Virus record (IMG/VR): IMGVR_UViG_3300010885_061695
Span: 1-20,274 of that record
DNA: 20,274 nt
DNA from: a virus
Direction: 5' to 3' (one strand)
Shown here: one piece after another, positions 2,250 through 20,274 of the stretch
How the letters are laid out: each line of letters starts with the position of its first letter
Numbering within the stretch: the first letter of the stretch is position 1
Made by a program: the position numbers and the translations under genes
The notes under the pieces: generated by a model
Database searches by the model: none
What the model saw: the letters and a program-made list of their open reading frames with translations, nothing else
What the model was told of the DNA's origin: nothing

Positions 2250-4589
2250 ATGGGAATTGGACCTTTACCGACAGCACCGACAGCACCGAATAGAAGACTT
2301 CAACCAAGTGAATATTTCTTAAAAGCTTTAGAAGCTCAAAGAGCAATTAATACTCACATACATGAAATTGAACCAACAACTCCAATTTTTCTTTATGAGA
2401 TAGATTTAAACGAGATAAGACCCGCTTCAATTTCTTATCCAATTTCTTCTGGTCCTATAACGAATGGAGTATTAAGAATTCATAATGATTTTAATTTATT
2501 CAATATAAATAAAGGGATCATTAAATGGAGAGGAAATAATTATTTTCCATTTCCTGTTTATGGAGAACAATTTGATATCACATCTAATGGAACAATTCCA
2601 ACTCCAAAAGTTAAATTTTCAAGTCAATTTTTAGATGATGAATTTAATTCTTTTTATAAATATATTCGAATGCAGATTAATGACCTCAAAGATATAGTTG
2701 GCTCAAAAGTAACAAGAGTTAAAACTTTTGTAAGATATTTACATCCAGATAATTTTGTTGGAGGAGTTAATCCATTTAATGATTTTCTAGATACTCCATG
2801 GGCATCAAGAGATGGAGAGGTTTTAACAGTTAGAACTCTAGAAAGAGTCCCATCAGATTCTTCAAAATGGTTAATATATAATATTAAACAAACGAAATTA
2901 AATAATGGAATTTTTACATGTACAAGAACAGATGATAGACTAAAAACTTTAGATATTCAATTACAACAAAATAATTTTTATATAGAATCTTATGATTTCT
3001 TCAATTACATAACGAATGAAAAAATTTCAGATAATCCAGATATAGATTCATTTTCATCTGATGTGTTTATAATTCCTCATGCTTCTGCAAGTTATGCAAA
3101 CATTATTCCAAAAGCTACTCATGACTTCAGAAGAAAAAATTCAACAGAAACGTTAAAGTCTATATCTTATTATAATACAAAAACATTCACTAATCAAACT
3201 ACAACAAGTATATCTTATCCATTTTCACATGCAGATACACCAGATAAATTAATAAATTTTATTTCTTTAAGAGCAGATAACGAAATGATTAACAAAAATT
3301 TTAATTATTCTATAACAAATCAAACTAGTTCAACTTTTTCTGCAAATTTTTCAACACCATTAAGTGGTACATTTTATGTTAATTTTTTTACAATTTCAAC
3401 TGGGATTTATACTGGAGTGAATTATTTTTCAAACGAAGATGCTCAATTATTGGCTTTGAAATTAACGAAAGATTTTGGAACTGATACATCTGGAGAATAT
3501 AATATTGTATTTCCATTATCATTTCAAAATGTTCCAAAAATATTATTCAATAGTTGGGGAAATTCAGGATTCAAATACAATCAATATTTAAAAAACATAA
3601 ACTCAACAGGATGTACGCTAGTTGCAACTCATACTGGAGATAATATTGGATTATATACTCAAAATATTAATTTAATAGCGACAGATTATATAACTGAAGA
3701 TTCAACTCCTGTTGATAGTGCTCAAATATATACATCTTATCAAAATAACGCATCAAATTATTTAAGTCAAATAGGTAATACAGATATAGAAGTTTACGAA
3801 GTTGAATTAACTCCAGATATCTATTACATAGACAGAAAAGTACAAGAAGATTCTCAAAATGTTATTTATGAATTAGCATCATTATTAGATATAGAAGGAA
3901 TTAAAATACCAGGAAGATTATTATTATCTAAAAATTGTCCATTTACTTATCGAGGAGAAGGATGCTTATACGAAAGACAAGATAGATTAACTTATGCTCA
4001 TTCTGGAGTATATGGAGAAGTTAGCTCTATTATTGTAGCTGCAACTAATGATGGAACAGATGGTATTGCTAATACTGCTATAAGTTCACAGGAAAAATGT
4101 TTGGGATTACAGTCTGCACCACCAGTAGCAAATCTTAAAGATGATACTTTTTATGGTGCAAGTAAAAGTGCAGGTTGGGAAGATAAAGGAAGTTGGCAGC
4201 AAAATATTTACTATGTAAGTAATAATTATATTTTTATAGAAAAAAATGGAATTAAATATTATTTTGTATGTAAATTAAATCATACATCAAATTCATTAAA
4301 TTCTCCACCAAATTCAACCTATTGGGAATCAGATTCTTGTTCAAAAACTTTAAAAGGATGTAGATTACGATGGAAACAAAATCCTAATTTTACTGAAAGA
4401 ACTATTAATTTTAATTATAAAATGGTTCTTCCAGATGGTCAATCTATAAATAATACAGTATTAACCTTAAAATCACAAAGCCCTATTGATTCAAATGGAA
4501 AACCGCTAGTTGGAGTACTTCCTTTTGGAGGATATCCTTCTATAGAAGGAAAATATCAATCTCAACAAGGTGGAATGGGTGGACCATAA
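2250..4589 (+). CDS. L: Minor tail protein L, iron-sulfur type, greatly enlarged
   Basis: At 779 residues this is over three times lambda gpL (about 230). The N-terminal gpL domain is clear: FLYEIDLN at 47-54, KWRGNNYFPFPV at 92-103, and V-G-S-K-V-T-R-V-K-T-F near 150-160. The C-terminal gpL region follows from IPGRLLLSKNCPFTYRGEGC at 553-572 and ends CSKTLKGCRLR at 697-707 and LPFGGYPS at 757-764. C563, C572, C697 and C704 correspond to the four gpL cysteines that hold an iron-sulfur cluster. Inserted between these parts are a long beta-rich region (about 230-500), including an H-type-lectin-like stretch at 412-482, and a CBM5/12-like module at 640-693 placed between the two cysteine pairs. 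The protein should sit in the tail tip next to gpM and the hub. The Shine-Dalgarno is weak (AAGAAAGAG). Confidence 0.87.
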   Translation: MGIGPLPTAPTAPNRRLQPSEYFLKALEAQRAINTHIHEIEPTTPIFLYEIDLNEIRPASISYPISSGPITNGVLRIHNDFNLFNINKGIIKWRGNNYFPFPVYGEQFDITSNGTIPTPKVKFSSQFLDDEFNSFYKYIRMQINDLKDIVGSKVTRVKTFVRYLHPDNFVGGVNPFNDFLDTPWASRDGEVLTVRTLERVPSDSSKWLIYNIKQTKLNNGIFTCTRTDDRLKTLDIQLQQNNFYIESYDFFNYITNEKISDNPDIDSFSSDVFIIPHASASYANIIPKATHDFRRKNSTETLKSISYYNTKTFTNQTTTSISYPFSHADTPDKLINFISLRADNEMINKNFNYSITNQTSSTFSANFSTPLSGTFYVNFFTISTGIYTGVNYFSNEDAQLLALKLTKDFGTDTSGEYNIVFPLSFQNVPKILFNSWGNSGFKYNQYLKNINSTGCTLVATHTGDNIGLYTQNINLIATDYITEDSTPVDSAQIYTSYQNNASNYLSQIGNTDIEVYEVELTPDIYYIDRKVQEDSQNVIYELASLLDIEGIKIPGRLLLSKNCPFTYRGEGCLYERQDRLTYAHSGVYGEVSSIIVAATNDGTDGIANTAISSQEKCLGLQSAPPVANLKDDTFYGASKSAGWEDKGSWQQNIYYVSNNYIFIEKNGIKYYFVCKLNHTSNSLNSPPNSTYWESDSCSKTLKGCRLRWKQNPNFTERTINFNYKMVLPDGQSINNTVLTLKSQSPIDSNGKPLVGVLPFGGYPSIEGKYQSQQGGMGGP
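3483..3695 (+). other. H-type-lectin-like beta segment inside gpL
   Basis: Residues 412-482 of gpL include YNIVFPLSFQNVPKILFNS, then INSTGCTLVATH, then INLIATDY. This resembles the H-type lectin fold seen in many phage fibre tips: a strand ending in F-x-x-x-P-K-[IV], then a [VI]-x-x-[ST]-G-[FC] strand, then a closing strand. It lies in an insertion absent from lambda gpL. Pattern-level evidence only. Confidence 0.33.
4167..4328 (+). other. CBM5/12-like module inside gpL
   Basis: Residues 640-693 of gpL contain W643, W649, an N-x-x-Y-x-x-x-[NS] turn, a strand with Y-Y-F-V-C, a His, a PP, and the terminal Y-W. The order matches the module in gpM. It lies between the two cysteine pairs of gpL, so it would project from a loop of the iron-sulfur domain. 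Confidence 0.45.
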
Positions 4590-4593
4590 TTTT

Positions 4594-5346
4594 ATGGAAT
4601 TTAACTCTCAAATTAAAAGTCAAATTAAAGATTTGTCTCTTAAAAAATTTCCAGAAGAAATTTGTGGTTTTATTTACTCAGATAAAGATAATTACAAATT
4701 TGATATTTATCCTTGCAAAAATAAAGCAAATAATAAAATAAATAATTTTACAATTTCTCCTCAAGATTATTTAAATTGTCAAAGATTAGGCAAAATCGTA
4801 GCATGTTACCACTCTCATTGTAATGATAATATTGAATTCAGCGAAATAGATAAAAATAATAGTAACATATATAAGATTAATTATATATTATATAATGCTA
4901 AATATGATTACTTTAATTTCTATTTTCCTGGAACAAGTAATAATCCATATATAGGCCGACCATTTTTATTAGGTAAATCCGATTGTTTTACTCTTATGAA
5001 AGAGTATGCTCTAAAAGAAGAAGGAGTAAAAATAGATTTTCCCAAAGATTTAATTTATCCAAGAAATTTAGAAGATATCAAAGATTTATATGAAAATAAT
5101 TTTAAAAATCAAGGATTTCTTAAATTAGATAAAAACACTAAACTAGAGAAATCAGATGGAATTATGATGAAATTTGGATCAGTTTCAGATGAGTTTCCGA
5201 CTCATGCAGCAGTTTACTTAGGAAATGGATTAATTTTACATCAACCTTTTAACTCTTTTTCTTGTGTAAATATATATGATAATTTCTTCAAAAAGCATAC
5301 TAGTTATGTTTTGAGGTATAAGGAGCTAGGAAATGGTAAAGGTTAA
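4594..5346 (+). CDS. K: Tail tip assembly protein K: JAMM protease plus NlpC/P60 peptidase
   Basis: A 250-residue protein with the lambda gpK architecture. The N-terminal JAB/JAMM metalloprotease domain has all expected zinc and catalytic residues: E22 in PEEICGF, H73-x-H75, then after seven residues S83-x-x-D86. The C-terminal NlpC/P60 domain has catalytic C131 (KSDCFTLM) and H204 (THAAVYLGNG), with H216/Q217 as the likely third position. The NlpC/P60 half is expected to cut peptide bonds in peptidoglycan. JAMM enzymes usually cut after ubiquitin-like domains, and the neighbour gpI has one. I chose ATG 4594, just after the gpL stop, because the protein then begins like lambda gpK. An in-frame GTG at 4570 overlapping gpL is the alternative. 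The 3' end overlaps gpI by 14 bases. Confidence 0.92.
   Translation: MEFNSQIKSQIKDLSLKKFPEEICGFIYSDKDNYKFDIYPCKNKANNKINNFTISPQDYLNCQRLGKIVACYHSHCNDNIEFSEIDKNNSNIYKINYILYNAKYDYFNFYFPGTSNNPYIGRPFLLGKSDCFTLMKEYALKEEGVKIDFPKDLIYPRNLEDIKDLYENNFKNQGFLKLDKNTKLEKSDGIMMKFGSVSDEFPTHAAVYLGNGLILHQPFNSFSCVNIYDNFFKKHTSYVLRYKELGNGKG
5320..5325 (+). promoter_or_regulatory. Ribosome binding site of gpI inside the end of gpK
   Basis: AAGGAG lies 7 bases before the ATG at 5333 and within the gpK coding sequence. The following CTAGGAA resembles the CAAGG seen after the Shine-Dalgarno at 1141 and 244. It supports 5333 as the start and translational coupling to gpK. Confidence 0.75.
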
Positions 5347-6655
5347 ATTACATGGAGAGTTAGGCCAAGAAATTGGTGAAGATTGGAATCTAGAAGTATC
5401 TAGTGTGGCAGAAGCTTTTCGTGCCATAGAAGCTAATACAAGAAAATTAACTAAATTTTTAGTTTTACAAGCTGAAAAAAATGCAAAATATGAAATTTTA
5501 ATAAATAATCGACCATTATGGGTTCCTAAAGCAGAAGATCTTCCATTAGATTATAAGGATGTTAAAAAAGAACATTTTAGCATGCTTCAACAATCTGAAA
5601 TGTGCATGGATTTTGGAAAACAATTAAAAACTATAGATATTGTGCCAATCCTAGAAGGAGCTGGCAGCAGCGGTGGTGGAGGAGGAGGTGGAGGATGCTT
5701 TCCTGCTGGTACAAAAATATCTACTCCACAAGGAGTAAAGAATATAGAAGATTTAAAAGAAGGAGATGAAATACTGTCTTTTAATAAAGATAAAAATATA
5801 GAAATTGATGTTATAGAAAAAGTTTTTGAGCATGAGAATAATAAAATTTTAAAAATTACACTCTGGGATGGATCAATTGTAAGAGCAACACCCAATCACT
5901 GGTTCTTCAATGAATATAATAGATTTACTCCTTTAGAAAATTTTAAAGTTGGAGATGTTTTAATACATGAAAGTGGCGATGTAATGCCAATTGAAAAAAT
6001 AGAAGAAGATGGAAATGAAAAAGTATATAATTTCCATGTTTTTAAAAATCATACATATATAGCAAATAATATATTTGTGCATAATGGAGGAGGAGGAAAA
6101 GGTGGAGGAGGAAAAGGAGGAGCAGGAGGAGGAGGAATGAAAAGTATATTTGCCGTCTTCTTATCCATTATGTTAGCTCCACTTACTGGTGGTTCAAGTT
6201 TAGGTTTTATGAGTATACTTATGCCAGCTATTTTAGGACTTGTAGCTCTTGGAGTTTCAATGCTATTAATGAAACCACCACCAATGGTAAGTCCACAATC
6301 CATAGCTAATCCTTCTGCAGATTTTGAAGCGTCACCAGATTCTGGAGGAGGAGAACCTTCATACACATTTAATGGACCAGTAAATACAGTAGGAGAAGGA
6401 GGACCAATTCCTCTTGGATATGGAAGACTTATAATTGGAAGTCATCAAGTTTTTAGTTCTTATGATCAAATATATAGAATCCAATCAAGAAATAATGTAT
6501 ACGAAAGTGACGGAAAAGCACCAATTGGAATAGGAGCTGGAGAAAAGAATTATCCAACAAAAAGTTATTATTTTGATACTCAAGGATATCCTATAACTAT
6601 TCAAACTCCTGTTGCTATTGACGGATCTGTGTCGCAAAGTTCTTTATCGGTTTAA
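5333..6655 (+). CDS. I: Tail assembly protein I (ubiquitin-like) interrupted by an intein-like Hint domain
   Basis: The 440-residue protein is lambda gpI split by an insertion. Residues 1-108 are the beta-grasp ubiquitin-like domain, ending in the family's IDIVPILEGAG. Residues 114-121 are eight glycines. Residues 122-251 are a Hint domain. Residues 252-268 are a second Gly/Lys/Ala linker. Residues 269-313 are two hydrophobic segments, and the gpI C-terminal motif follows at 348-373 (GPVNTVGEGGPIPLGYGRL, then GSHQVFSS). Without the Hint domain the protein would be about 310 residues with one continuous glycine linker, close to other gpI proteins. Lambda gpI acts in tail-tip assembly. The ubiquitin-like part may be cut off by the JAMM domain of gpK or, here, by the Hint domain. 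It overlaps gpK by 14 bases and ends 4 bases before gpJ. Confidence 0.9.
   Translation: MVKVKLHGELGQEIGEDWNLEVSSVAEAFRAIEANTRKLTKFLVLQAEKNAKYEILINNRPLWVPKAEDLPLDYKDVKKEHFSMLQQSEMCMDFGKQLKTIDIVPILEGAGSSGGGGGGGGCFPAGTKISTPQGVKNIEDLKEGDEILSFNKDKNIEIDVIEKVFEHENNKILKITLWDGSIVRATPNHWFFNEYNRFTPLENFKVGDVLIHESGDVMPIEKIEEDGNEKVYNFHVFKNHTYIANNIFVHNGGGGKGGGGKGGAGGGGMKSIFAVFLSIMLAPLTGGSSLGFMSILMPAILGLVALGVSMLLMKPPPMVSPQSIANPSADFEASPDSGGGEPSYTFNGPVNTVGEGGPIPLGYGRLIIGSHQVFSSYDQIYRIQSRNNVYESDGKAPIGIGAGEKNYPTKSYYFDTQGYPITIQTPVAIDGSVSQSSLSV
5672..5695 (+). repeat. Glycine-codon tract before the Hint domain (GGN x8)
   Basis: Eight consecutive Gly codons, mostly GGA and GGT, end exactly at the Cys codon of the Hint domain. 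With the tract at 6086-6136 they form imperfect direct repeats bracketing the domain. Confidence 0.85.
5696..6085 (+). other. Hint domain: mini-intein or bacterial-intein-like (BIL type A) element
   Basis: Residues 122-251 of gpI. Block A is CFPAGTKISTPQGVKNIEDL, with the nucleophile C122, followed by the conserved GDEILSF. Block B has T186-P-N-H189 (TxxH). Block F is VYNFHVFKNHTYIANN, with Asn at 233 where inteins usually have Asp, and H240. Block G is IFVHN, ending in H250-N251. The next residue is Gly252, so the Cys, Ser or Thr needed for ordinary protein splicing is absent. The residues for N-terminal thioester formation and for Asn cyclisation are all present. At 130 residues there is no room for a homing endonuclease. 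BIL type A domains lacking the +1 nucleophile are known to autocleave and sometimes splice; which of these happens here is unknown. Confidence 0.92.
6086..6136 (+). repeat. Glycine-rich codon tract after the Hint domain
   Basis: Seventeen codons encode GGGGKGGGGKGGAGGGG, nearly all GGA, and begin at the codon right after the terminal Asn of the Hint domain. It is a direct-repeat partner of 5672-5695 and contains two internal GGxGGAGGAAAA units. Confidence 0.85.
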
Positions 6656-6659
6656 TTAT

Positions 6660-9600
6660 ATGGCTAAAAAATGTAAAGATTGTGATCCAAATAAATATAT
6701 AGAAGGTTTAGCGTATAGAGGCGCAAACGGAATTTCTTATGATGGATTTATCAACTACAATAGCGTAGGGAAACCAACTCAAACAGATGTAACATTAGCA
6801 GATGTAAATGCATTGCTAGATGCTTATAATCCTATTTTTGGAAATGATGATACTACTGCTTTGCCTCCTCAATCTGCGCCTCTTTCATTAAAAGGTATTG
6901 ATAGAAGTCAAGGATTTTGGTTAGTTTGGGGTTTAACAAAAGGTTTAGTAGCGTTTGGTATTCCTGGTCAAAAATTAACTGCAGCCAGTATCCTTAATGG
7001 ATATAATACAACAACAAAAAAAGGAGATAATTTTAATTTTACTGTTACTACAGATCAAGTACCAAGTAGTTTATTTTTTACTGATTTTGGAAAAATAGCT
7101 GATACTGGCTCTAGTGATCCATTAAGATTTAATAGTGCCCTAACAGTACAAAACAGCTTAATTAAAGATAAGATGAATTATGTAGGATACTATACGGGTA
7201 TTATTGTATCGACCCTAAATGGTAGTAAATATATTACGACAGGAACAGGTAAAAATAAAAAAACTCAATTAGAAGTTCTTATAAGTAAAAAAAGTTTAAC
7301 AATTAAATCAAAAGACTCACAGGGGAATGATCCGATTTATGTGACCAGTGCTCCAACAATTCATCTTTTTAAAAATACCACTTTTTCTTATACGTTAACA
7401 ACAAATTTACCGCAAAGTCAATATACAGTATATCTTAGTCCAGCTGATATCAATAGTTTGCAATTATTAGGACTTACTTGGAATAGCTCCAATAAAACAA
7501 TAACTGGCGTGGGTTCAAGTTCACTTGCTGCCGCTGCTAAAAATTTAAGTTTAACTTTTACTGTATATGGTCCAGATAAAGACTCTGGAAATAAGCAAAC
7601 ATTTACATTAGGTATTGTTTACGGAGGTTATAACAGTAAAGAAACATTACCAACAATATCCAATAAAGTATTTAATTTATCAGTTGGTGACGATGTTGGA
7701 AAATTACCTTTAAATGGATTAAATAATAAACATACAATCATAGGAATAGCTTCATTACCCGAAGGATTAACTTTTAATGCAACATCTAAAAATATAACTG
7801 GTACGCCAAAACATGCTGGAACTTTTTATGCATATGCTAGTTGTTCAAATTTAAGAGGATCAAGCAGTAAAGCCACATTAACTTTTAATATAGGCCCGTA
7901 TGTTTTAAATGCAAAAGCCGCAGGAAATACATTTCCTAGCGTAATTAATTTTCCTAAATGGAGCTTTGATAAGATTAAAAATAATTCAGTAACAATATAT
8001 GCAAAACCATCTGGAGATGATATATTAGCATACAAAAAAATTAATATAAGTGATCTTCCAAATATAATAAAAAATGGAGTCCCAACAGATCCAACCGATG
8101 CACAAATAGCTCAAGGCGCAGATCCAAGAAGAGTTCGAAAAGGATTTATGACTGAAATTTTTTACCCTGGTAGAGGAATCAATGAAGAGAGTTATTTTTG
8201 GTTGAGTTTAGATGATCCTACAAAAAATAATACAAAATCAGGAGAATTTAATCTTGAATTAAATGGAAGATATTATTTAAATTATTCAAGTGCAGCAGCA
8301 ATAGATAACCTAGATAATGCTTGTTTTAATCCAACTTCAACGTCTAGTGGTCCAGCGTCTACACCTTATAGTGAATCTTTAAAATTAACTGCTACGAATC
8401 TTGTTAAAGGTGGCATAAGTGGAAATCCAGCAGACAATGTTATAAGCGTTAGTTTTTCTCCAACTAACATAGAACATCAAGTAGTTTATTTAAGTGGACC
8501 AGGACCATTCGATACAGCTAGTGCATTTGCTAAAACAACATTAAGTAGTGGTAAACTAAAATATCCAAATGGAATACCTAATAGAAATGGTACATATACA
8601 TTTTATATCAAAGCTATGGATACTTGCGCTTTTAATTCTAATACGCAAGAATTTGTATCTTATATAGGATCATACTCTCCAAGACCAGGAGATGTATATA
8701 GTTGCTATTATGAATATTGGCAAAGAGGTTATTGGACTTACAATAAAAGCACTCGTAGAAATGATCTTTGGGTTGTTTGTAATAATAATAATAGAGGCTG
8801 TATAAATAGGAAAGTTTCAGGATATCAAAATGTTGTTTTAGGGGGATATAGTATTCCAGGTGGTTGTAATGCGGTTGTATCTTATACTGGAAATACCGTC
8901 ACAAGAGATAATTATGCTTATAGATATGGTAATACTTTGAAAGATTCAAAAGATATAGGAATAAGTTCTTTAACAAATATATCTATTTTAGATGTTTTAG
9001 GCGAAGGACCAATAGAAGGAATTGTTGATTATGAAATATCTCCAAATGCAGGATATGCTCTAGGTGATATAGGATATAAAAATGGTGTTACAATCAAACG
9101 TTACTCACCAAACGAATACGATAAATATGGCATACTTAGATCTATTTATTGGAATGAAATACCTATAGCAGATAGTTCATACGATAAACCTGGTAGTTTA
9201 AATTTTGAATTTATTAGACTTTACTATGACAATGGATCAAGCGCACCAAAACATACAAATATACAATCTTTAGAAAATATAAATCTAGAAGAAGAATTCT
9301 ATACTAGAAGATTATTAAATGGAACTTATGTAAATTTTTTAGAAGCAGTCGCTACAGATGGAACGTATATAGGAAATAGCATTAAATTGCCTAAAAAATT
9401 AACAAATACAAAAGTAGTAGGAACAAAATTATTTGGTAAACGAGTCTTTCAAGATGGAACTTCTAAAACTTATAAAAAATCATTAGTTATTCTTAATAAA
9501 GATATTTCTGGATTAAGACTACATATAAAAGGCTTAAGTTTATTTAAAACTATTGTAGATTTAACCATTTGGGATTCGGCTGATCAAGCAGCTGCAAATT

Positions 9601-11720
9601 CAGTTGCTGGCAGAATAGATCGTCAAGAAATGAGTTTCAATTTATATTTAAAAAGAATAGATGTAGGTCCTGATGGTAAAACAGTTACTTTAATTGGTAA
9701 TCCAAAATACACTGGAGCTACTACTGGAACTTATAGCATTTCATTAAGAGACTATTATGATCAATATTTTGTAAAAGAATATGATGTATTGAATCTTTAT
9801 TATCCACCAAATGATCCAGGTGGTCCTGGAAATGGACCAGATGGTTACCAAAGAGTTCCAAATTATGATCAATTTATAGCTGGATATACAACTTATTCTC
9901 ATAGACACGATGGTAAAGTTTATAATAGTTATGCTAAAGACGTTAATAAATCAAATTCAGACTTGAATGCAAGATATTATGATCACGTAAATCAAAGACT
10001 AAGATATTTTGCTGGAGAAGCAAGAGATTATTCTACTTTAACTATGGTTGGTAAATTAAATCAAGGGCCTTATATTGAAACTTTTGAATGGACGGGATTA
10101 AAAGAATCTGCAAAAACTGGATTTAATCAAGCAACCACAATAGGATGGGAAATAGAAATAGAACCAACTTATATAGAGAGTGTAGATCCAAACGTAGTAA
10201 TAAAAAGCGCTATAGATTCAATAACAGAAATGTATGATGATTTTATTTCTATGCCTAATACCGCTGGAGTTCTAACTACATTTGATGCTAGATATTTTAC
10301 TAGTATTCCACAAAGAGCCTATGATGTAAGAATGCTTAAAGTTAAAGTTCCATCTAATTATAATCCTTTTGCAAAAACTTACGATGGAATATGGGATGGA
10401 ACTTTTAAATTATCATGGACAGATAATCCAGCTTGGTGTTTTTATGATTTAATAACTAATAGAAGATATGGATTAGGAAAATATGTAGACCCAGACCTCA
10501 CAGATAAATGGACATTATATGAAATTGGTCAATATTGTGATCAATTAGTTAGCGCTGGACAAGCTGGTTTATATGAGCCAAGATTTACATGCAACGTCTT
10601 AATTAGCACAAGAGAAGACGCATATAAAGTTATTAATGATATGGCGAGTATTTTTAGAGCGATAGTGTTTTATAATGGTGGATTAATATTCACTTCACAA
10701 GATCGACCAAAAGATGCAATATATATATTTAATAATAGTAATGTCAAAGATGGAGAATTCACTTATAGCAATACAAGCAAAAGAGTCAGAAGAAATGTTG
10801 CTCTAGTAAGATACAATGATAAAAATAATTTTTACAAACCAGCAGTAAAATATGTAGAAGATAGAAATGGTATAATAAGATTTGGAATTAGAGAAACTGA
10901 GGTAAGTGCTTTTGGTTGCACTAGCGAAGGACAAGCAGAAAGACTTGGAAAATGGACACTGCTATCAGAAAATTTAGAATCAGAATTGATTAATTTTGAA
11001 ACTAGTTTACCAGCGATGTATTTAAAACCTGGAGATATTGTATTTATACAAGATCAAAATAGACAAAATAAAATTCTTGGTGGAAGAACTTATGAATTGA
11101 CAAAAGATCATGCTATTTTAGATGTCTCATACGATAATATATCTGGATATTTAAATTCAATTAATGCGTGCAATTTTAATGTATTAACACCTGCAGGCAA
11201 CGTAGAAATTGGCACAGAAATAGGGAATTTTGTAATAGAAAATGCAGACCAATTAAATACTCCAGTTACAATTGATAATGAATTAGTCTCTGGAATAAAT
11301 TCAAAAACTATTAGAAGAAAACAAATACAAACTGTTCAATATGAATCAGCATTTACTAAAACAAACACAGGCGATACTAGTATATTCCAAAATTTTGTTT
11401 CAGTTGTGGATAGTGGTAATTTCGCGGGATATACTAAATTATCTTTTGGTGGACAACTTTTAGATGACAAAACTCATACTTTAATGCAAAATACAGTATG
11501 GACGATAGAAATTAATCCAGATAATTACGATGAACAATATAGTCCAAGTATTAGTGGATTTAACAGTAATGGAGCATATCCTGGTTCAGGATTAGAGCCT
11601 CATATAGACAAAACTCAAAAGTTTAGGATTTTAGATATAGAAGAGCAAGAAGAATTTAGATATAAAATCACAGCTTTACAATATGATGAATCAAAATTTA
11701 AATTAGGAGATGACATTTAA
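6660..11720 (+). CDS. J: Tail tip hub / host-specificity protein J with long N-terminal extension
   Basis: From the ATG at 6660 the protein has 1686 residues. The gpJ core starts near residue 770 (SLTNISILDVLGEGPIEG, GEGPIEG at 781) and includes VPSNYNPFAKTYDGIWDGTF from 1230, IGQYCDQ at 1289 and FGCTSEGQAERLG at 1418. It ends YKITALQYDESKF close to the C-terminus, which matches the end of the lambda gpJ hub region. The lambda distal fibre region is absent. The first 770 residues are extra: a CKDC motif at 5-8, at least two Ig-like domains (about 225-325 and 330-412), further beta-rich sequence, and a Cys-rich patch from 682. gpJ forms the hub at the tail tip. An earlier in-frame TTG at 6612 is unlikely. 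No Shine-Dalgarno is visible; the gpI stop 4 bases upstream suggests termination-reinitiation. Confidence 0.92.
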   Translation: MAKKCKDCDPNKYIEGLAYRGANGISYDGFINYNSVGKPTQTDVTLADVNALLDAYNPIFGNDDTTALPPQSAPLSLKGIDRSQGFWLVWGLTKGLVAFGIPGQKLTAASILNGYNTTTKKGDNFNFTVTTDQVPSSLFFTDFGKIADTGSSDPLRFNSALTVQNSLIKDKMNYVGYYTGIIVSTLNGSKYITTGTGKNKKTQLEVLISKKSLTIKSKDSQGNDPIYVTSAPTIHLFKNTTFSYTLTTNLPQSQYTVYLSPADINSLQLLGLTWNSSNKTITGVGSSSLAAAAKNLSLTFTVYGPDKDSGNKQTFTLGIVYGGYNSKETLPTISNKVFNLSVGDDVGKLPLNGLNNKHTIIGIASLPEGLTFNATSKNITGTPKHAGTFYAYASCSNLRGSSSKATLTFNIGPYVLNAKAAGNTFPSVINFPKWSFDKIKNNSVTIYAKPSGDDILAYKKINISDLPNIIKNGVPTDPTDAQIAQGADPRRVRKGFMTEIFYPGRGINEESYFWLSLDDPTKNNTKSGEFNLELNGRYYLNYSSAAAIDNLDNACFNPTSTSSGPASTPYSESLKLTATNLVKGGISGNPADNVISVSFSPTNIEHQVVYLSGPGPFDTASAFAKTTLSSGKLKYPNGIPNRNGTYTFYIKAMDTCAFNSNTQEFVSYIGSYSPRPGDVYSCYYEYWQRGYWTYNKSTRRNDLWVVCNNNNRGCINRKVSGYQNVVLGGYSIPGGCNAVVSYTGNTVTRDNYAYRYGNTLKDSKDIGISSLTNISILDVLGEGPIEGIVDYEISPNAGYALGDIGYKNGVTIKRYSPNEYDKYGILRSIYWNEIPIADSSYDKPGSLNFEFIRLYYDNGSSAPKHTNIQSLENINLEEEFYTRRLLNGTYVNFLEAVATDGTYIGNSIKLPKKLTNTKVVGTKLFGKRVFQDGTSKTYKKSLVILNKDISGLRLHIKGLSLFKTIVDLTIWDSADQAAANSVAGRIDRQEMSFNLYLKRIDVGPDGKTVTLIGNPKYTGATTGTYSISLRDYYDQYFVKEYDVLNLYYPPNDPGGPGNGPDGYQRVPNYDQFIAGYTTYSHRHDGKVYNSYAKDVNKSNSDLNARYYDHVNQRLRYFAGEARDYSTLTMVGKLNQGPYIETFEWTGLKESAKTGFNQATTIGWEIEIEPTYIESVDPNVVIKSAIDSITEMYDDFISMPNTAGVLTTFDARYFTSIPQRAYDVRMLKVKVPSNYNPFAKTYDGIWDGTFKLSWTDNPAWCFYDLITNRRYGLGKYVDPDLTDKWTLYEIGQYCDQLVSAGQAGLYEPRFTCNVLISTREDAYKVINDMASIFRAIVFYNGGLIFTSQDRPKDAIYIFNNSNVKDGEFTYSNTSKRVRRNVALVRYNDKNNFYKPAVKYVEDRNGIIRFGIRETEVSAFGCTSEGQAERLGKWTLLSENLESELINFETSLPAMYLKPGDIVFIQDQNRQNKILGGRTYELTKDHAILDVSYDNISGYLNSINACNFNVLTPAGNVEIGTEIGNFVIENADQLNTPVTIDNELVSGINSKTIRRKQIQTVQYESAFTKTNTGDTSIFQNFVSVVDSGNFAGYTKLSFGGQLLDDKTHTLMQNTVWTIEINPDNYDEQYSPSISGFNSNGAYPGSGLEPHIDKTQKFRILDIEEQEEFRYKITALQYDESKFKLGDDI
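7647..7895 (+). other. Putative Ig-like (He_PIG-type) domain in the gpJ extension
   Basis: Residues 330-412 of gpJ show the signature SLPEGLTFNATSKNITGTP followed by A-G-T-F and a final strand TLTFNIG. This is the usual order for putative Ig (He_PIG) repeats found in surface and fibre proteins. A more divergent copy may precede it at about 7336-7630. Confidence 0.65.
11704..11709 (+). promoter_or_regulatory. Ribosome binding site of the gene after J
   Basis: AGGAGA lies 10 bases before the ATG at 11720, inside the end of gpJ. The gpJ stop and the new start overlap as TAATG, typical of translational coupling. Confidence 0.6.
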
Positions 11721-14900: not shown

Positions 14901-15085
14901 TATATCTTTCTATTCCTGACTTCACTTTCTCTAAAAAAGGCCCTTACTTATTTAATCAAATTAAAAGAGACTATGAAGCTTGGGTAATTGGTCAAAAAAC
15001 ATTTGCTGTAAAAATATTACTATTAGATAAAAGTGGAGATACACTAAGTCAAATATTTACATTTACTAACAACGAAAATTGTTAA
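11720..15085 (+). CDS. Probable tail-tip or fibre protein with N-terminal Ig-like domain
   Basis: A 1121-residue protein rich in Asn, Ser, Thr, Ile and Tyr and predicted to be mostly beta strand, with no signal peptide or membrane segment. Residues 1-85 are a putative Ig (He_PIG-type) domain with NLPVGFSINNDSGLIKGVPS, then AGSYSIDL and a final TLTLNIQV strand, like the domain inside the gpJ extension. Residues about 90-200 may be a fibronectin-III-like domain ending YLTIFSKNSLGYESSG. The rest is unrecognised. Near the C-terminus C918, C929, C933 and C934 form a cysteine cluster that could bind metal or form disulfides. Its start overlaps the gpJ stop (TAATG). Because gpJ ends at its hub region, this protein may be the distal fibre or receptor-binding part; that is inferred from position and domain type. 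Confidence 0.85.
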   Translation: MSAPIINSTLSVSANIGEYFEYTITASNSPTSYNATNLPVGFSINNDSGLIKGVPSIAGSYSIDLFATNVDGTDSQTLTLNIQVKDSILNLSTNIIQTVSSPDAQISIIDITKNTKGFKVNIKPKKNIDDIKYYNVYLDNINFNLKPNTNDSSLLIKQLPYSELEQTFDYIPRNSGLHYLTIFSKNSLGYESSGILFSGIIPNQQVIKEISFKNFNYYKNDKNDTDDALIGEMNIFPSSGQITVNTPFSLIGFEIDYLSETTEEVANFEGFYLKDFSSYFKEKALNVYCRVIQALDNNSGILFDNTLLRNTSNDVFTFQQKGDSVIKDSYKNDLSIRNTDLIADNQNRSIIPSNSRYFIFDYINNHNAFISKNTRYEEAVNSQNNLLFNPEKDTESSFLQKMLNATGLTGELNKNYILTTNPGHYNTYYISVELTDENGFSSAGGNVESPSNTDLERYTNQDGYKIIKIEHNTISRNKVSNMFKNYRREDNKIVFDIKGDLPIDIGLNSILIIPQKYQENINLQENKTYFDDYIFLRNIDDIKAQNEKNYKIEMIDSQNESKYRITTYLNPDSPLLKDNIFSAKIYYLNSLQAHSLSFYLSENGYTLKALLYYISNTEVIDKYIVLNKFIKDNQNYTSTIAASYQGLVYFFTPESFPYIAWPDQKYRENYLNKHGARMLDFEADGVASGPEFFDYFPKANAEIYDNFPSEIQYKTTYRCLDSYKYSSNNLLEFLTPEDVPTNGINGSSSYLGVYDPGNIGDVDSPNTADFKSINNDLVYFKSKNISYIKFISAGMQKDDAYAIIEFILDIPDAQDFIVQGISGTDTILEKGIKEINGVNHHYFVAKFVSSCGVDTDPILNGTPINQKNIVDSKKMISFLIYPTKIKIIEDPDDVPFFGDLYLLATSFDNNQFSILKECPYTVLNNSTDCVKSCCVQPEDTINQKSIFANFHILSRHIGNQTGNNYPYGKIGGTTNNVLGSIAYRYKAANYSTSNITLEYKKPTNQINPLNFGIVCYPEHNVALDKILIYMKQVNDVNNITWQSADLIDSYIFEDIVKTYPIYLSIPDFTFSKKGPYLFNQIKRDYEAWVIGQKTFAVKILLLDKSGDTLSQIFTFTNNENC

Positions 15086-18000
15086 CGGCCTAAATCTCTT
15101 CCCTTACTGCCTTGATATAATACTCCGCCTGGACGTTGTTCTTCTACTATAACTTTCAATACTTGTTGTCTTAATAATTCTGCAAGGACTCTTGATCTTT
15201 CCATTGTCTTTTTGAATTTCTCTTGATCAGTTTCTTCTTTATTGCTTCCAGTTTGATCTTCTTCTTTTGTGGAGTCTGTTGTTTTACCATTTTGATCAAC
15301 GTTAACGCTTATGTTTATATTATTAGTTACTCCTCCAGCTCCAGTTGTATCAGAAGTTGTTGCTCCACCTTCTGCTTGAGCTTTGGCTCCTTTATTTTGC
15401 TCTTCGATTCCTTTATTTAATTGCTCTAAAGATTTTACTAATTTTGTAATAGATTCTACAAATTGATTTCTAGAATTATCCTGTTGATTTGGTCCTACAC
15501 CTCCAACAGAAGGTAAAGCAGTTCCAACTGGACCACCTTCTGCAAATCCAGTAACTTGTCCTCTGTTTAATCTATCAAAAAATGGTTGTCCAAAGCGATC
15601 TACAGCATCTTTTCTAACTACATATTCTCCGCCCATAAGCATAGCTGGTACATCGTCCTTAGTAGAAGTTCCGCCATAAATCATTCCACCAGTAGCTCTA
15701 CTAGCCCAACTTGGAGTAATTCCTAATCTACTTCCTGTTGAAAACCAATTACTAAATACATTTCCTAAAGAATTAAATCCTGATTGATATCCTGTTCCAC
15801 CAAACCCACCAAAATTTTGACTTCCAAATGCAAATGGACTATACATGCTTGGGGTCATTGGATATTTAAAAGCATTAAATTGAGAAAGACTTGAGTATGG
15901 ACTTGCGCCAATATACTTTAGATAATTATTAAAACCTTTTTCACCAAATGAAGAGAATCTATTTTGTAAAGTATTGCCATAAAATGAAGAGAACTTCGAA
16001 GATAATCTGCCGTAATCACCTTTATTTTTAACATCATATAAGCTACCTACACTTTGATATAGAGTCGGTGAAGCTCCAGAAGTTTGGTCTATTATATTTT
16101 GTAAATTTTGAAAGAAAGGTAGTATTTGATCTGGAGATTGTTGATTTATTCCCAAGAAATCTTGTTGAGTAATAGCTTCTGCTACTGCTTGTGGAGTTAC
16201 TTTCGTTCCTCTTAAATAGTCTCCCATAGCAGGAGAAGGAAAACTCATTTTTGTTTGATAACCAGCACTAGGATTAAATATACTTCTATTATATAAATTT
16301 CCACCTAAATTATATAATGCGTCATAACCTTTTCCAGCTAAATTCTTCATTCCACCCAAACTAGCCATTAATGCTCCACCAATTCCACCTGCTCCACCAC
16401 CAATTGCTGGCATTTTCATTCCAGCATTAGAAATAGTTTTTGTAACGCCACCTTGAGGCATATTAAATGGAGTTGCATTTAATCTATTAGTATTAAATGT
16501 TGCAGCTGTTCCAGTAAAAGCTGGAGCATTAGTTGCTTTCAAGAAATTTGTTACAGCATTAGCACTTCTCGCCTGATTAGCAAATGGATTAGGCTGCATT
16601 CCTATTGTATCAATCCCTTTTGCTATTTGATTGGTCGAAGGAGAAAAAGATGTTAGTGGGAAAGATTGTTTTGATGGCAATCTAAATCCAGCCACTACAG
16701 CAGGAGTATTTGTACCAGCTATATTCCCTGCTGGAATACCCATATTCATTGCTGCAATTTTTGTTGCACCAGTTTTATTTAGTTGAAAATCAAAATGAGT
16801 TCCAGTCGCTCCAGGAGTTTTAGGGCCTTCAAAATTCAAAGAATAATCTTTTTCAGAAAGACCCATACTAGATAAATAATCTTTAATTTGTTGTTTTCCA
16901 GCTGTATAGTCATTTAATGTAAAATCACTTTTAAGTCCAGTTCTATGAGATGTTCCTGCGGACCTAACTCCAGCGTGATAAAGATCATTCATGCCAGTCA
17001 TTCTATTAAAATTAGATCCCAAAGCCCCTTGAATTCCTCCCATTAAATTTAATAATTCTGGACTATTGTATCCTCCACCAAAAGCCTGACCACCCATTTT
17101 TTGTAAATCTGCATAAGTACTATTTGTTGTTAATCCCATTTGAGCTAATGTATAAGTCTTTCCATCTGAACCTTTAACTCTTAAATTAAGAGCATTAGAC
17201 GGAAGATATTGATTTGCCATACCACCAGTTTGATAACCACGAACTAGTCCACCTTTTGCATATCCTCTATTATATCCAAATGGATTAGAATTTTGATTCA
17301 AGAAATCATAAACAAGATTTCCTCGACCAGGAGCAATTGGAGCAACAGGAGATGCAAAATTCATTAGATAATCTTGCTGTGCATTTTGAGTATAAGTTTG
17401 GAATCCTGCTGGCGCTCCTAATCCTACTCCAAATTGAAATCCTCCAATAGTAGAAGTTGGTTGACCATAGTTATAGCTTGAACCTCCATATCCACCCTGA
17501 CCACCAAATTGTGGAAATAGTTGAGCTTGTTGTTTTGAGAACGGATCGCCATAACCACCAAATTGACCTCTTTCAATTGCGTCACTCATAGCTTTTTTCT
17601 GATCATCTGTAAGCTTATTACCTACTATTGCTCCACCAGGCATACTAGAAAATTGCGAGAATCCTCCTGTTAGAGCAGTTTGAAGAAGACCTGCGCCTGT
17701 ATTAAGTATGCCACCAAATATACCTCCAAGTCCACCTCCACCTCCGCCTCCACCAAATAATCCACCTAAACCACCACCGCCACCTAGACCACCTAAAAGT
17801 GGTCCAGCAAGACTCATTCCAACATTTAGCAATCCACCAATCAACATGTTTGATCTTGCTTGATTATATGCAGCCATTCTTCTTGCATTTTCTTCGTCTG
17901 CTGCTTTTTGCGCTAGTCTTCTCTGCTCTTCTACTTGACGATATTGTTCGTTATATCCAGTTTTAAAGTTTGACACTTGCTCTTGATAGTTTTGCATTCC

Positions 18001-20274
18001 AAGAAATCTTTGAGTTCTTAGAGCGTTCATTGGATTATTTTCATCCATTAAAGCTCTACTACTTAACATGTCTGATATATTAAATTTACCTGTTAAAGCT
18101 GGAACATTACCTAATTCACTTGGAGCATTTACTGTAGTTTTAAATGCTTCGGCAGTATAATTATCATTTAATTTTTCTCCATTTGCTCCAAAGAAATCAT
18201 AACTATTATTCAATAATCCAATAACACTTCCGCCACCAGCATATCCTCTTACCATACCGCCTTTATTAAGCATATCCAACATGCCTTTGCCATATTTATT
18301 AACCGCACTTTTTCTTAATACGTATTCTCCATCTGTTAGCATCGCAGGAACATCATCTTTCATTCCACTTCCACCTTTAACATGACCACCAGAACTATAC
18401 TTTTTAATTATTCCTCCTTGAGATTTTCCACCAAATAAACTTCCTAAAATATTACCTAATAATCCTCCACCACCCCCACCTTGTTCACCAAATCCACCAC
18501 CACCAGTTAATCCACCAAGTAAACTTCTCATTCCAATACTAAATTGTTCTTTTATAATTTGTTGAGATATACTTAATAACATATCTTGGAAAGCTTGATC
18601 TGCAGTTTTTGTTCCATCTATAAATGCGCCAAATGCGTCTTCAAATCCAGTTTGCATATTAGTTGCAAGATTAGCAAAAGATTTATTTATTTTATCTGCT
18701 GTTGTTGCAGCATTATCGCCAAACTTATCAAAGAAAGACGTAAGAGGATCAAATCCTTCAGCAAAGTTTCCTTGTTTCAATGATCTCTCCATCAAGCTTT
18801 GACGAGCTGCTGCTCGTTCATCAGAGAACATGTATTGTGAATTTTTACCAAATTCAATTTTATCTATTGATAATTTTAATCTTTCAAAAGCTTGAGTAGT
18901 TGTTATTGCTCCATTATTCCAAGCCTTTTGTATCTCTGCAGCTTCTTGAGTATATTGACTTAAATATTTTATTCTATCTGCACCATATCCTAATTCATCA
19001 CTTAATTGCTTATATCCAGTTATAACTTGTTCTCCAAATGCTTGACTTTTACCTACGCTTAAATTTTGTTCTATTTTAGAATAATCTATATTACCTAGAG
19101 CAGCAGAACTAATTCCTCCAGGAAGAGAGAACTGCCTTTGTAATGCTTGTATATCTGTAATAGATCTTGTACCTTGAGTGAAAGCTGCATTTTCTGCTGC
19201 TAAAGCTTCTCTATATTTTTCTACGCTTTCTTGATGTTCTTTCCAAGCTTTTAGATACTCATCCAATAATCCTTTTTCATCTACCTTTTTTAATTCTTCT
19301 CCTATTAATTTAGAATACTCTCCAGTACTAATTAATCCATCTACTAAACCTTGTACTCCATTTATTCCTCCTGATTTATAAGCTTGTTGAAGTTTTCCAA
19401 TATCAACACTACCTACTGCTTCTCCTGTTTTACTGAAGTTAGAAAAAAGATCAGATAATTGTTGTCCACCAGTTTGTATATATCCTCTATAACTCATTTG
19501 ATCTCTTTGAGACATGCCTTTAATTTTTTCTTGTGGACTTTTCATGTAATCACTTGTAAAAAAGTCATACCATTTTTCACCTGCTAAATCATTTATTTTT
19601 TGAGTTGTTCCTAATAATCCTCCACCAGCAGCAAGTCCTTTTGATTCTCTTTGAGCTTTAATTTGAACTTCGCTTATCTTTTGCCTCAACTCTGCTGTAT
19701 CGCCTATCTTTTTATAAAGATCAACAATTTCATCTCCTGCACCTGGAAGTGCGGCATTTAATTGAGTAATACTTTTAGCAAAATCAGTTTCAGATTTATT
19801 TCTTAAATCTAGTCTTGTTTTTGCATCTAAATCTGCTCTACCTTCTATTGAACTTAAAGTTTCTAAAGATACTGATAAGTTTTGAGTTGCAGCTGAAATA
19901 CTATTAAATTTTTCTGTTGAAGTTTCTATTGATTTTGCAACATCTGGCATGATATCATTTAATTTTTCAAATACATCATAAGCTGCCATGATTCCACCAA
20001 TTCCACCTCCAACAGCTGCCCCCATTGGTCCTCCAACAGCAAATCCTAATCCAGCATAAGAAGCTGCTGTACCCAATCCAGATATTCCAGCTTTAGTTGC
20101 TCTTCCTCCAGCTGTATTTTCATTTCCAATAAACTGAGCAGCTGTATCTGCTAATAATGGAGCAGCTAATGCAAGTCCTGCTCCATATCTTGATCCAAAT
20201 CTTCCTAATGCTCCACGAGCTCCACCAGATATTCTTCCTTGTTGATTTCTTGCAAATACTCCCATCTGATTATT
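15082..20274 (-). CDS. Tape-measure protein with M15-like peptidase motifs (5' end open at window edge)
   Basis: At least 1730 codons. The first in-frame ATG is at 20265, but the frame stays open to the window end and the visible start already looks internal, so the N-terminus is probably missing. In order: hydrophobic Ala/Gly helices (about 28-95); long helical region (100-530); a lambda-tape-measure C-terminal-like segment near 535-580 (GFEDAFGAFIDGTKTADQAF); a Gly-rich part; a first KDDVPAMLTDGEYVLRK unit near 637; a coiled coil near 765-800; Gly-rich hydrophobic stretches; an M15-like motif set at 1107-1159; a second DDVPAMLMGGEYVVRK unit near 1537; and a C-terminal EEQRPGGVLY. Such proteins set tail length and leave through the tube at infection. 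It converges on the fibre gene, and the two stops share a TTAA. Confidence 0.9.
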   Translation of the reverse strand, partial: NNQMGVFARNQQGRISGGARGALGRFGSRYGAGLALAAPLLADTAAQFIGNENTAGGRATKAGISGLGTAASYAGLGFAVGGPMGAAVGGGIGGIMAAYDVFEKLNDIMPDVAKSIETSTEKFNSISAATQNLSVSLETLSSIEGRADLDAKTRLDLRNKSETDFAKSITQLNAALPGAGDEIVDLYKKIGDTAELRQKISEVQIKAQRESKGLAAGGGLLGTTQKINDLAGEKWYDFFTSDYMKSPQEKIKGMSQRDQMSYRGYIQTGGQQLSDLFSNFSKTGEAVGSVDIGKLQQAYKSGGINGVQGLVDGLISTGEYSKLIGEELKKVDEKGLLDEYLKAWKEHQESVEKYREALAAENAAFTQGTRSITDIQALQRQFSLPGGISSAALGNIDYSKIEQNLSVGKSQAFGEQVITGYKQLSDELGYGADRIKYLSQYTQEAAEIQKAWNNGAITTTQAFERLKLSIDKIEFGKNSQYMFSDERAAARQSLMERSLKQGNFAEGFDPLTSFFDKFGDNAATTADKINKSFANLATNMQTGFEDAFGAFIDGTKTADQAFQDMLLSISQQIIKEQFSIGMRSLLGGLTGGGGFGEQGGGGGGLLGNILGSLFGGKSQGGIIKKYSSGGHVKGGSGMKDDVPAMLTDGEYVLRKSAVNKYGKGMLDMLNKGGMVRGYAGGGSVIGLLNNSYDFFGANGEKLNDNYTAEAFKTTVNAPSELGNVPALTGKFNISDMLSSRALMDENNPMNALRTQRFLGMQNYQEQVSNFKTGYNEQYRQVEEQRRLAQKAADEENARRMAAYNQARSNMLIGGLLNVGMSLAGPLLGGLGGGGGLGGLFGGGGGGGGLGGIFGGILNTGAGLLQTALTGGFSQFSSMPGGAIVGNKLTDDQKKAMSDAIERGQFGGYGDPFSKQQAQLFPQFGGQGGYGGSSYNYGQPTSTIGGFQFGVGLGAPAGFQTYTQNAQQDYLMNFASPVAPIAPGRGNLVYDFLNQNSNPFGYNRGYAKGGLVRGYQTGGMANQYLPSNALNLRVKGSDGKTYTLAQMGLTTNSTYADLQKMGGQAFGGGYNSPELLNLMGGIQGALGSNFNRMTGMNDLYHAGVRSAGTSHRTGLKSDFTLNDYTAGKQQIKDYLSSMGLSEKDYSLNFEGPKTPGATGTHFDFQLNKTGATKIAAMNMGIPAGNIAGTNTPAVVAGFRLPSKQSFPLTSFSPSTNQIAKGIDTIGMQPNPFANQARSANAVTNFLKATNAPAFTGTAATFNTNRLNATPFNMPQGGVTKTISNAGMKMPAIGGGAGGIGGALMASLGGMKNLAGKGYDALYNLGGNLYNRSIFNPSAGYQTKMSFPSPAMGDYLRGTKVTPQAVAEAITQQDFLGINQQSPDQILPFFQNLQNIIDQTSGASPTLYQSVGSLYDVKNKGDYGRLSSKFSSFYGNTLQNRFSSFGEKGFNNYLKYIGASPYSSLSQFNAFKYPMTPSMYSPFAFGSQNFGGFGGTGYQSGFNSLGNVFSNWFSTGSRLGITPSWASRATGGMIYGGTSTKDDVPAMLMGGEYVVRKDAVDRFGQPFFDRLNRGQVTGFAEGGPVGTALPSVGGVGPNQQDNSRNQFVESITKLVKSLEQLNKGIEEQNKGAKAQAEGGATTSDTTGAGGVTNNINISVNVDQNGKTTDSTKEEDQTGSNKEETDQEKFKKTMERSRVLAELLRQQVLKVIVEEQRPGGVLYQGSKGRDLGR
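15530..15690 (-). repeat. Tape-measure repeat unit 2 (DDVPAML...GEYVVRK)
   Basis: Encodes GGMIYGGTSTKDDVPAML, then MGGEYVVRKDAVDRFG, a short helix, and LNRGQVTGFAEGG. It aligns end to end with the unit at 18236-18400. The shared D-D-V-P-A-M-L and G-E-Y-V-[LV]-R-K-x-A-V cores are clear despite divergence. Confidence 0.75.
16760..17060 (-). other. Peptidase M15-like domain inside the tape-measure protein
   Basis: TSHRTGLKSDF gives H1107, G1110 and D1114 in the spacing of the M15 motif S-x-H-x-x-G-x-x-x-D. GTHFDF supplies H1157, 43 residues after D1114, as the third zinc ligand. The preceding NRMTGMNDLYHAGVRSAG fits the strand-and-loop before that motif. The usual catalytic Glu three residues before the last His is not seen, so activity is uncertain. 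Family members cut peptidoglycan peptides. Confidence 0.6.
18236..18400 (-). repeat. Tape-measure repeat unit 1 (DDVPAML...GEYVLRK)
   Basis: Encodes GGHVKGGSGMKDDVPAML, then TDGEYVLRKSAVNKYG, a short helix, and LNKGGMVRGYAGGG. This unit is common in tape-measure proteins of environmental phages. It recurs about 900 residues later at 15530-15690. Confidence 0.75.

Follow-up and report, generated by a model that had tools for sequence, protein, structure and literature searches.

Tail assembly protein I (gpI, TAPI) of lambda-like phages is composed of an N-terminal ubiquitin-like beta-grasp domain (Ubl), a Gly-rich linker and a C-terminal domain, and it is encoded between gpK, which carries JAB and NlpC domains, and gpJ, in the gene order L-K-I-J. 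The Ubl of lambda and T1 gpI was assigned from sequence by Iyer et al. in 2006, who also described the Gly-rich linker leading to the C-terminal domain; in their prediction, the last Gly of the Ubl is where the JAB domain of gpK cleaves (PMC1779556). In the lambda virion, the C-terminal part of gpI forms a tripod plugging the tail tip, and its N-terminal domain is unresolved, which differs from cleaved (PMC10721106, PMC11101478).

A-type BILs, such as the solved domain of C. thermocellum (PDB 2lwy), have a mini-Hint fold with Cys1, a TxxH motif, a block F of the form VYNF...HTY and a terminal His-Asn, lack Cys, Ser or Thr at the +1 position, and are often located in Gly-rich variable regions of proteins. 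BILs yield mainly cleaved products (PMC7664689). According to a passage of PMC5874633 citing Dassa 2004, splicing does occur in some A-type BILs that lack a +1 nucleophile, and the title of Aranko 2013 refers to ligation without nucleophilic side chains. In the ciliate BUBL genes (BIL2, PDB 6y75/6tmm) a Ubl lies directly N-terminal of the BIL, and BIL2 conjugates its own Ubl to lysine without ATP (PMC8616854).

The window, i.e. the whole analysed stretch of 20,274 nucleotides, shares with lambda the gpI architecture and the gene order. However, lambda gpI has no Hint domain, its predicted Ubl release being assigned to the JAB protease (PMC1779556), whereas the gpI of the window carries, between Ubl and plug, a domain that resembles A-type BILs in all the features listed above. 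It differs from them in its location in a tail-tip morphogenetic protein of a phage, where it is fixed in the lineage and separates two domains of known function. Class 1 inteins, e.g. gp41-1 (PDB 6qaz), have the same fold and N-terminal chemistry, but the gpI domain has neither a +1 nucleophile nor an endonuclease and is placed in a linker rather than at a conserved site. Like the BUBL proteins, gpI has a Ubl directly ahead of the Hint domain; in contrast to them, it belongs to a phage and contains one MoaD/SAMP-like Ubl, followed by a tail plug instead of another Ubl. A pairing of Ubl and BIL known from ciliate polyubiquitin genes is now placed in a phage. A-type BILs are known as a class; the tail-tip setting between Ubl and plug is new, and no description of a BIL at this joint of gpI was found in the open-access papers searched.

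Layout of gpI and identity of its Hint domain

The gpI gene (5333..6655, plus strand) encodes a protein of 440 aa, of the lambda gpI kind, with the order Ubl, poly-Gly, Hint, poly-Gly/Lys and plug. In PHROG profile searches, residues 1-114 matched the tail assembly protein family phrog_32 (4.8e-24), and residues 300-373 matched the tail family phrog_4554 (9.1e-10). Positions 266-366 of the gpI family profile matched the tail assembly protein PDB 9l9p_A (3.4e-9), and the part C-terminal of the Hint domain also matched another solved tail assembly protein, 25vf_9 (4.6e-6). The adjoining genes encode gpK (4570..5346, plus strand; Prok-JAB 1.1e-7, NLPC_P60 1.3e-5) and the central fibre/tip protein gpJ (6612..11720, plus strand; phrog_31, 2e-127), whose copy in the window is free of Hint domains.

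Residues 1-109 (5333..5659, plus strand) form the Ubl according to their AF2 model (pLDDT 73.5). In the VIA comparison, the best 22 rows, and almost all of the top 26, were sulfur carriers, ubiquitin-like modifiers or related proteins, among them SAMP1 (Z 8.2), MoaD, CysO and Urm1, with alignments reaching residues 107-110. Foldseek gave weaker matches (best E 5.1e-3). A Gly-rich linker, AGSSGGGGGGGG (residues 110-121; 5660..5695, plus strand), whose length differs among relatives, leads to the Hint domain (residues 122-251; 5696..6085, plus strand). The latter is followed by a Gly/Lys linker, GGGGKGGGGKGGAGGGG (residues 252-268; 6086..6136, plus strand), in which Lys256 occupies the +5 position, and by the hydrophobic helices and the plug region (residues 269-440; 6137..6652, plus strand). 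The AF2 model of full-length gpI is poor outside the Hint domain (mean pLDDT 50.6).

The Hint domain is located on the Ubl/plug joint, within an enlarged Gly linker, since in Hint-free gpI homologues of about 40% identity (L047-L049) the end of the Ubl, '...IDIVPVLEG', runs directly into the hydrophobic region. Such an alignment with insertion-free gpI had been proposed as a check in the preliminary description of this locus, which was made from the sequence without database searches.

An internal translation start at the ATG at position 6137 (6125-6139) was considered and rejected. The Gly codons immediately 5' of it, GGAGGAGGAGGA, resemble a Shine-Dalgarno sequence, but the corresponding Met269 is missing in several relatives (e.g. 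L004, L008, L009, L014, L023), so a separate start of the plug is not conserved. The promoter search of positions 5000-7000 gave nothing above chance.

That description had also recognised a complete minimal Hint domain at residues 122-251, which was confirmed by profile searches. The segment matched Pfam PT-HINT (2.7e-12), Intein_splicing (6.3e-11) and Hint_2 (6.1e-7), and NCBIfam intein_Nterm (6.1e-11) and intein_Cterm (0.0075; 16.5 bits against a cut-off of 15.6). The sequence search also matched the domain to the C. thermocellum BIL 2lwy (2.5e-13, or 3e-18 with the family profile). Its AF2 model is mostly confident (pLDDT 62-94 as averages of 10-residue blocks) and gave a VIA Z of about 20 (20.6 over 132 residues). 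The nearest solved fold is again 2lwy (TM 0.86, E 7.7e-12), and the second-best match is BIL2 of the Tetrahymena BUBL1 polyubiquitin locus. The BUBL arrangement of a BIL with a Ubl on either side is absent, as the tail plug lies C-terminal of the Hint domain. For the same reason the reading suggested by PT-HINT, that of a polymorphic toxin pretoxin, was rejected: the C-terminal part of gpI is a tail plug and not a toxin domain.

All the catalytic positions are present: Cys122, the N-terminal nucleophile Cys1 (5696..5698, plus strand); block B TxxH, T186-P-N-H189 (5888..5899, plus strand), with T186 and H189 invariant among gpI relatives; block F, N233 to H240 (NFHVFKNH; 6029..6052, plus strand), with N233 and H240 invariant; and block G, His250-Asn251, followed by Gly252 at +1 (6080..6088, plus strand), the predicted C-terminal cut falling after Asn251. 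Cys122 and block G with its +1 Gly are likewise invariant. The Asn in block F, formerly noted as an oddity in place of Asp, is indeed there, but it fits the BIL type because it is invariant in the family and 2lwy also aligns as 'VYNF'.

The Hint fold, the residues Cys1, TxxH and His-Asn, a +1 residue other than Cys, Ser or Thr, a length of 130 aa, the lack of an endonuclease, and insertion in a variable, non-conserved Gly linker are all features of A-type BILs. Gly252 at +1 and a position in a Gly-rich linker, not at a conserved critical site, set the domain apart from class 1 inteins. Sequence and predicted fold thus support the assignment of 5696-6085 to the A-type BILs, and together with conservation they back the earlier suggestion of a BIL type A profile without a +1 nucleophile.

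More than 20 further Hint-bearing gpI proteins were found in IMG/VR (69-98% identity in the best segment). The catalytic residues and the +1 Gly are kept in all relatives that read through the C-terminal junction (23 loci; 17 distinct Hint domains); the contigs of L045 and L046 end in the gene before this junction. The Hint residue set is therefore not due to chance, as every junction-reading relative keeps all of it, +1 Gly included; among the distinct gpI-family Hint domains, both this Gly and the Lys at +5 occur in 17 of 17. The record of L024 covers only the C-terminal part of gpI, and L046 has an in-frame stop ahead of the Hint domain, possibly an artefact of sequencing or assembly. Median pairwise dN/dS within the gpI family was 0.141 for the Hint domain, 0.141 for the plug and 0.169 for the Ubl; purifying selection acts on the Hint domain as it does on the remainder of gpI. 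All the close gpI relatives that were found carry the domain, Hint-free forms appearing only from about 40% identity.

Predicted self-cleavage of gpI

Judging from the sequence and the modelled fold, the BIL of gpI probably cuts its own precursor and parts the Ubl from the plug, with cleavage dominating over splicing. Cys122 would attack the carbonyl of Gly121 (an N-to-S shift), and the Ubl with its poly-Gly tail would become a thioester, which would then be hydrolysed or transferred. Cyclisation of Asn251, assisted by His250, would free the plug part with the new start GGGGKGGGG. The expected products would be a Ubl of about 121 residues, the Hint domain of 130 and a plug of about 189 residues. 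In intein chemistry, junctions of the type Gly-Cys1 and His-Asn-Gly permit both cleavages and not canonical splicing. Cleavage is expected over splicing here because the +1 Gly offers no side chain that could take part in the usual transesterification.

Since the cut site coincides with the point at which JAB was predicted to release the gpI Ubl, the BIL would, in cis, perform or support the task assigned to the protease in other lambda-like phages. It does not seem simply to replace JAB, as gpK retains an intact JAMM motif (HSH-x7-S-x-x-D), found in 16 of 16 distinct gpK proteins of the family. The location of a cutting domain at the joint suggests that no lasting covalent bond between Ubl and plug is required; if gpI cuts itself and tails still form, the two would be separate parts of a working tail. 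To our knowledge, there is no proof of the cleavage of the lambda gpI Ubl from the rest of the protein, predicted since 2006, and a self-processing domain at the predicted joint would give a direct, testable handle on that prediction.

Hint domains in gpJ and in other proteins

A wider set of Hint domains was collected by two DNA pattern scans of viral contigs, one for a poly-Gly-Cys-Phe start and the other for a Val-His-Asn-poly-Gly end. Because such sampling is biased by the pattern, the unselected end of each domain was scored. Among the matches listed, N-terminal gpJ Hint domains found by the start pattern only kept His-Asn in 41 of 41 cases, with Ala (29), Gly (10), Thr (1) or Lys (1) at +1, and those found by the end pattern only had Cys1 in 40 of 40 full-length domains. 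Nearly all the related poly-Gly BILs of tail-tip genes in these matches lack Cys, Ser or Thr at +1.

At least 64 distinct Hint domains lie at the N-terminus of gpJ, the most frequent tail-tip location, in the manner of a prodomain in uncultivated lambda-like phages (e.g. L051, L079, L094, L127). Their N-extein is about 16 residues long, and in loci that extend far enough a Hint-free gpI usually immediately precedes them; in L217, two poly-Gly BILs stand in tandem at the gpJ start. The gpJ ORFs starting with 'VPLIEGGGGGGG' were considered as fused Ubl-Hint proteins, a reading rejected because a separate gpI precedes them.

Among 69 gpJ relatives of 70-100% identity, collected without regard to the Hint domain, 23 carry it and 46 lack it. 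The gpJ tree requires at least 9 Hint changes, and at least 3 of these are unavoidable given strongly supported branches. Hint-free gpJ starts read MTQTKY-IAGAGGGGKGGGGSHTP, and a Hint-bearing one MTQAKYTAIAGSGG-[Cys...His-Asn]-AGLGAR-IAGAGGGGKGGGGSHTP; residue 4 of lambda gpJ aligns 18 residues C-terminal of the Hint domain. A cut after His-Asn would therefore leave a gpJ start of native length, with AGLGAR replacing MTQTKY, which points to C-terminal cleavage as the reaction that matters in the gpJ-start BILs.

Another group of Hint domains occurs inside gpJ of the relatives of the window, in the long N-terminal part, 71-95 residues ahead of the conserved gpJ core (residues about 680-1116 in L036, L044, L040, L031, L030, L042, L035, L038 and L043). 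They occupy a variable loop that comes after the conserved motif GDVYxC and are followed by Arg, Gly or Met. Such a domain was found in 10 of the 11 relatives checked; none is present at this site ('GDVYSC' loop in the window) in gpJ of the window, L028, L029, L002 and L003. In the window, about 800 residues precede the lambda-like core of gpJ, with a weak match to the Ig-like He_PIG (9.4e-4).

In the Hint tree, the gpI domains form one clade (SH-aLRT 100) among the gpJ-start domains, and the gpJ-internal domains form a separate clade; many of the deeper forks lack resolution. Tail-tip genes harbour a family of BILs in gpI, at the gpJ start and in the gpJ interior, which might be a source of compact self-cleaving tags working in Gly-rich linkers. 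This family, the Ubl adjoining the Hint domain and the nearby JAB protease gene go beyond what the preliminary description had reported.

The turnover in gpJ bears on a second explanation of the gpI domain, which we consider possible yet less probable than the main reading: the BIL might be a neutral or selfish passenger that cleaves as proposed above and has no role for the phage, surviving because the poly-Gly linker tolerates cuts and the domain removes itself. The gpJ-start BIL, being gained and lost among gpJ proteins of 70-100% identity, is dispensable at that site and may be such a self-removing passenger. The patchy occurrence of the gpJ-internal domains, missing from the window and a few others, points the same way, and the Gly repeats on both sides could serve as a recombination target. 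However, all close relatives found (about 70-98% identity) have the gpI domain, the first Hint-free forms being met at about 40% identity, and a domain of 130 residues has no homing endonuclease to explain selfish spread. From these sequence comparisons, fixation in gpI argues for use and turnover in gpJ argues for tolerance. The idea that the gpI domain is a maturation switch for tail assembly, put forward in the preliminary description, stays plausible, given its position at the predicted Ubl-release site and its presence in every close gpI relative found, but the dispensability of the homologous gpJ-start BILs weakens it.

Further Hint domains among the matches listed belong to other, mostly unassigned proteins and, in a few cases, to gpJ C-termini. 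A tblastn search of 50,697 phage records showed, at the sensitivity of this method, none in gpI or gpJ; the matches listed comprised inteins of helicases or terminases, proteins that are hypothetical or contain coils, and records lacking annotation. In bacterial reference genomes, the poly-Gly-Cys-Phe scan gave at least 29 Hint loci (L288-L406) among the 119 matches listed, none of them adjoining gpI or gpJ. These bacterial A-type BILs with poly-Gly flanks lie in unrelated large proteins, have Lys, Gly, Leu or Asp at +1, and occur also in tandem (e.g. L303, L308, L288).

Possible splicing and possible transfer of the ubiquitin-like domain

The Ubl and the plug are a single chain in the Hint-free homologues, and non-canonical splicing would restore it: the Ubl would be joined to the plug through the backbone amine of the +1 residue, giving a gpI of 310 residues like that of other phages (440-130, the length given earlier for a spliced form). 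A-type BILs are described as able to splice without a +1 nucleophile in the passage mentioned above (PMC5874633), yet the products of BILs are mainly cleaved ones (PMC7664689). Moreover, the N-extein at the gpJ start is only about 16 residues long, therefore cutting alone would suffice there and leave +1 free to be Ala or Gly. We regard splicing of gpI as rather unlikely, and self-cleavage is still preferred.

It is more doubtful still that gpI possesses a built-in, E1-independent activation of its Ubl, in which the Cys122 thioester would be handed to a lysine, either Lys256 or one of another tail protein, as in BUBL BIL2. The Ubl lies directly ahead of the BIL as in BUBL, BIL2 is the second-best structural match, the +5 Lys is kept in all 17 distinct gpI-family Hint domains, and no ThiF/E1 gene was found in five long relatives, whose contigs may be incomplete. 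On the other hand, no acceptor is known, Lys is common in Gly-rich linkers, and the +5 Lys is missing from many gpJ-start copies. If true, such a transfer could mark or order the assembly of the tail tip, and it could be related to the bacterial systems that conjugate ubiquitin-like proteins onto the central tail fibre.

An inert remnant or structural spacer without autoprocessing is very improbable, as every complete gpI copy and almost every gpJ copy retains Cys1, TxxH and His-Asn, unselected ends included, and the dN/dS of the Hint domain is 0.14.

Two other features of the window were observed. The gpL protein (2250-4589) has 779 aa and is over twice as long as that of the Hint-free relative L047 (361 aa), and its extra stretch gave only a weak match to an H-type lectin (E 0.028). 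The minus strand (15082-20265 and 275-1081) bears a 1727-aa Gly-rich ORF, tape-measure-like in appearance, which lies downstream of the plus-strand tail-tip genes and faces them, unlike the order in lambda.
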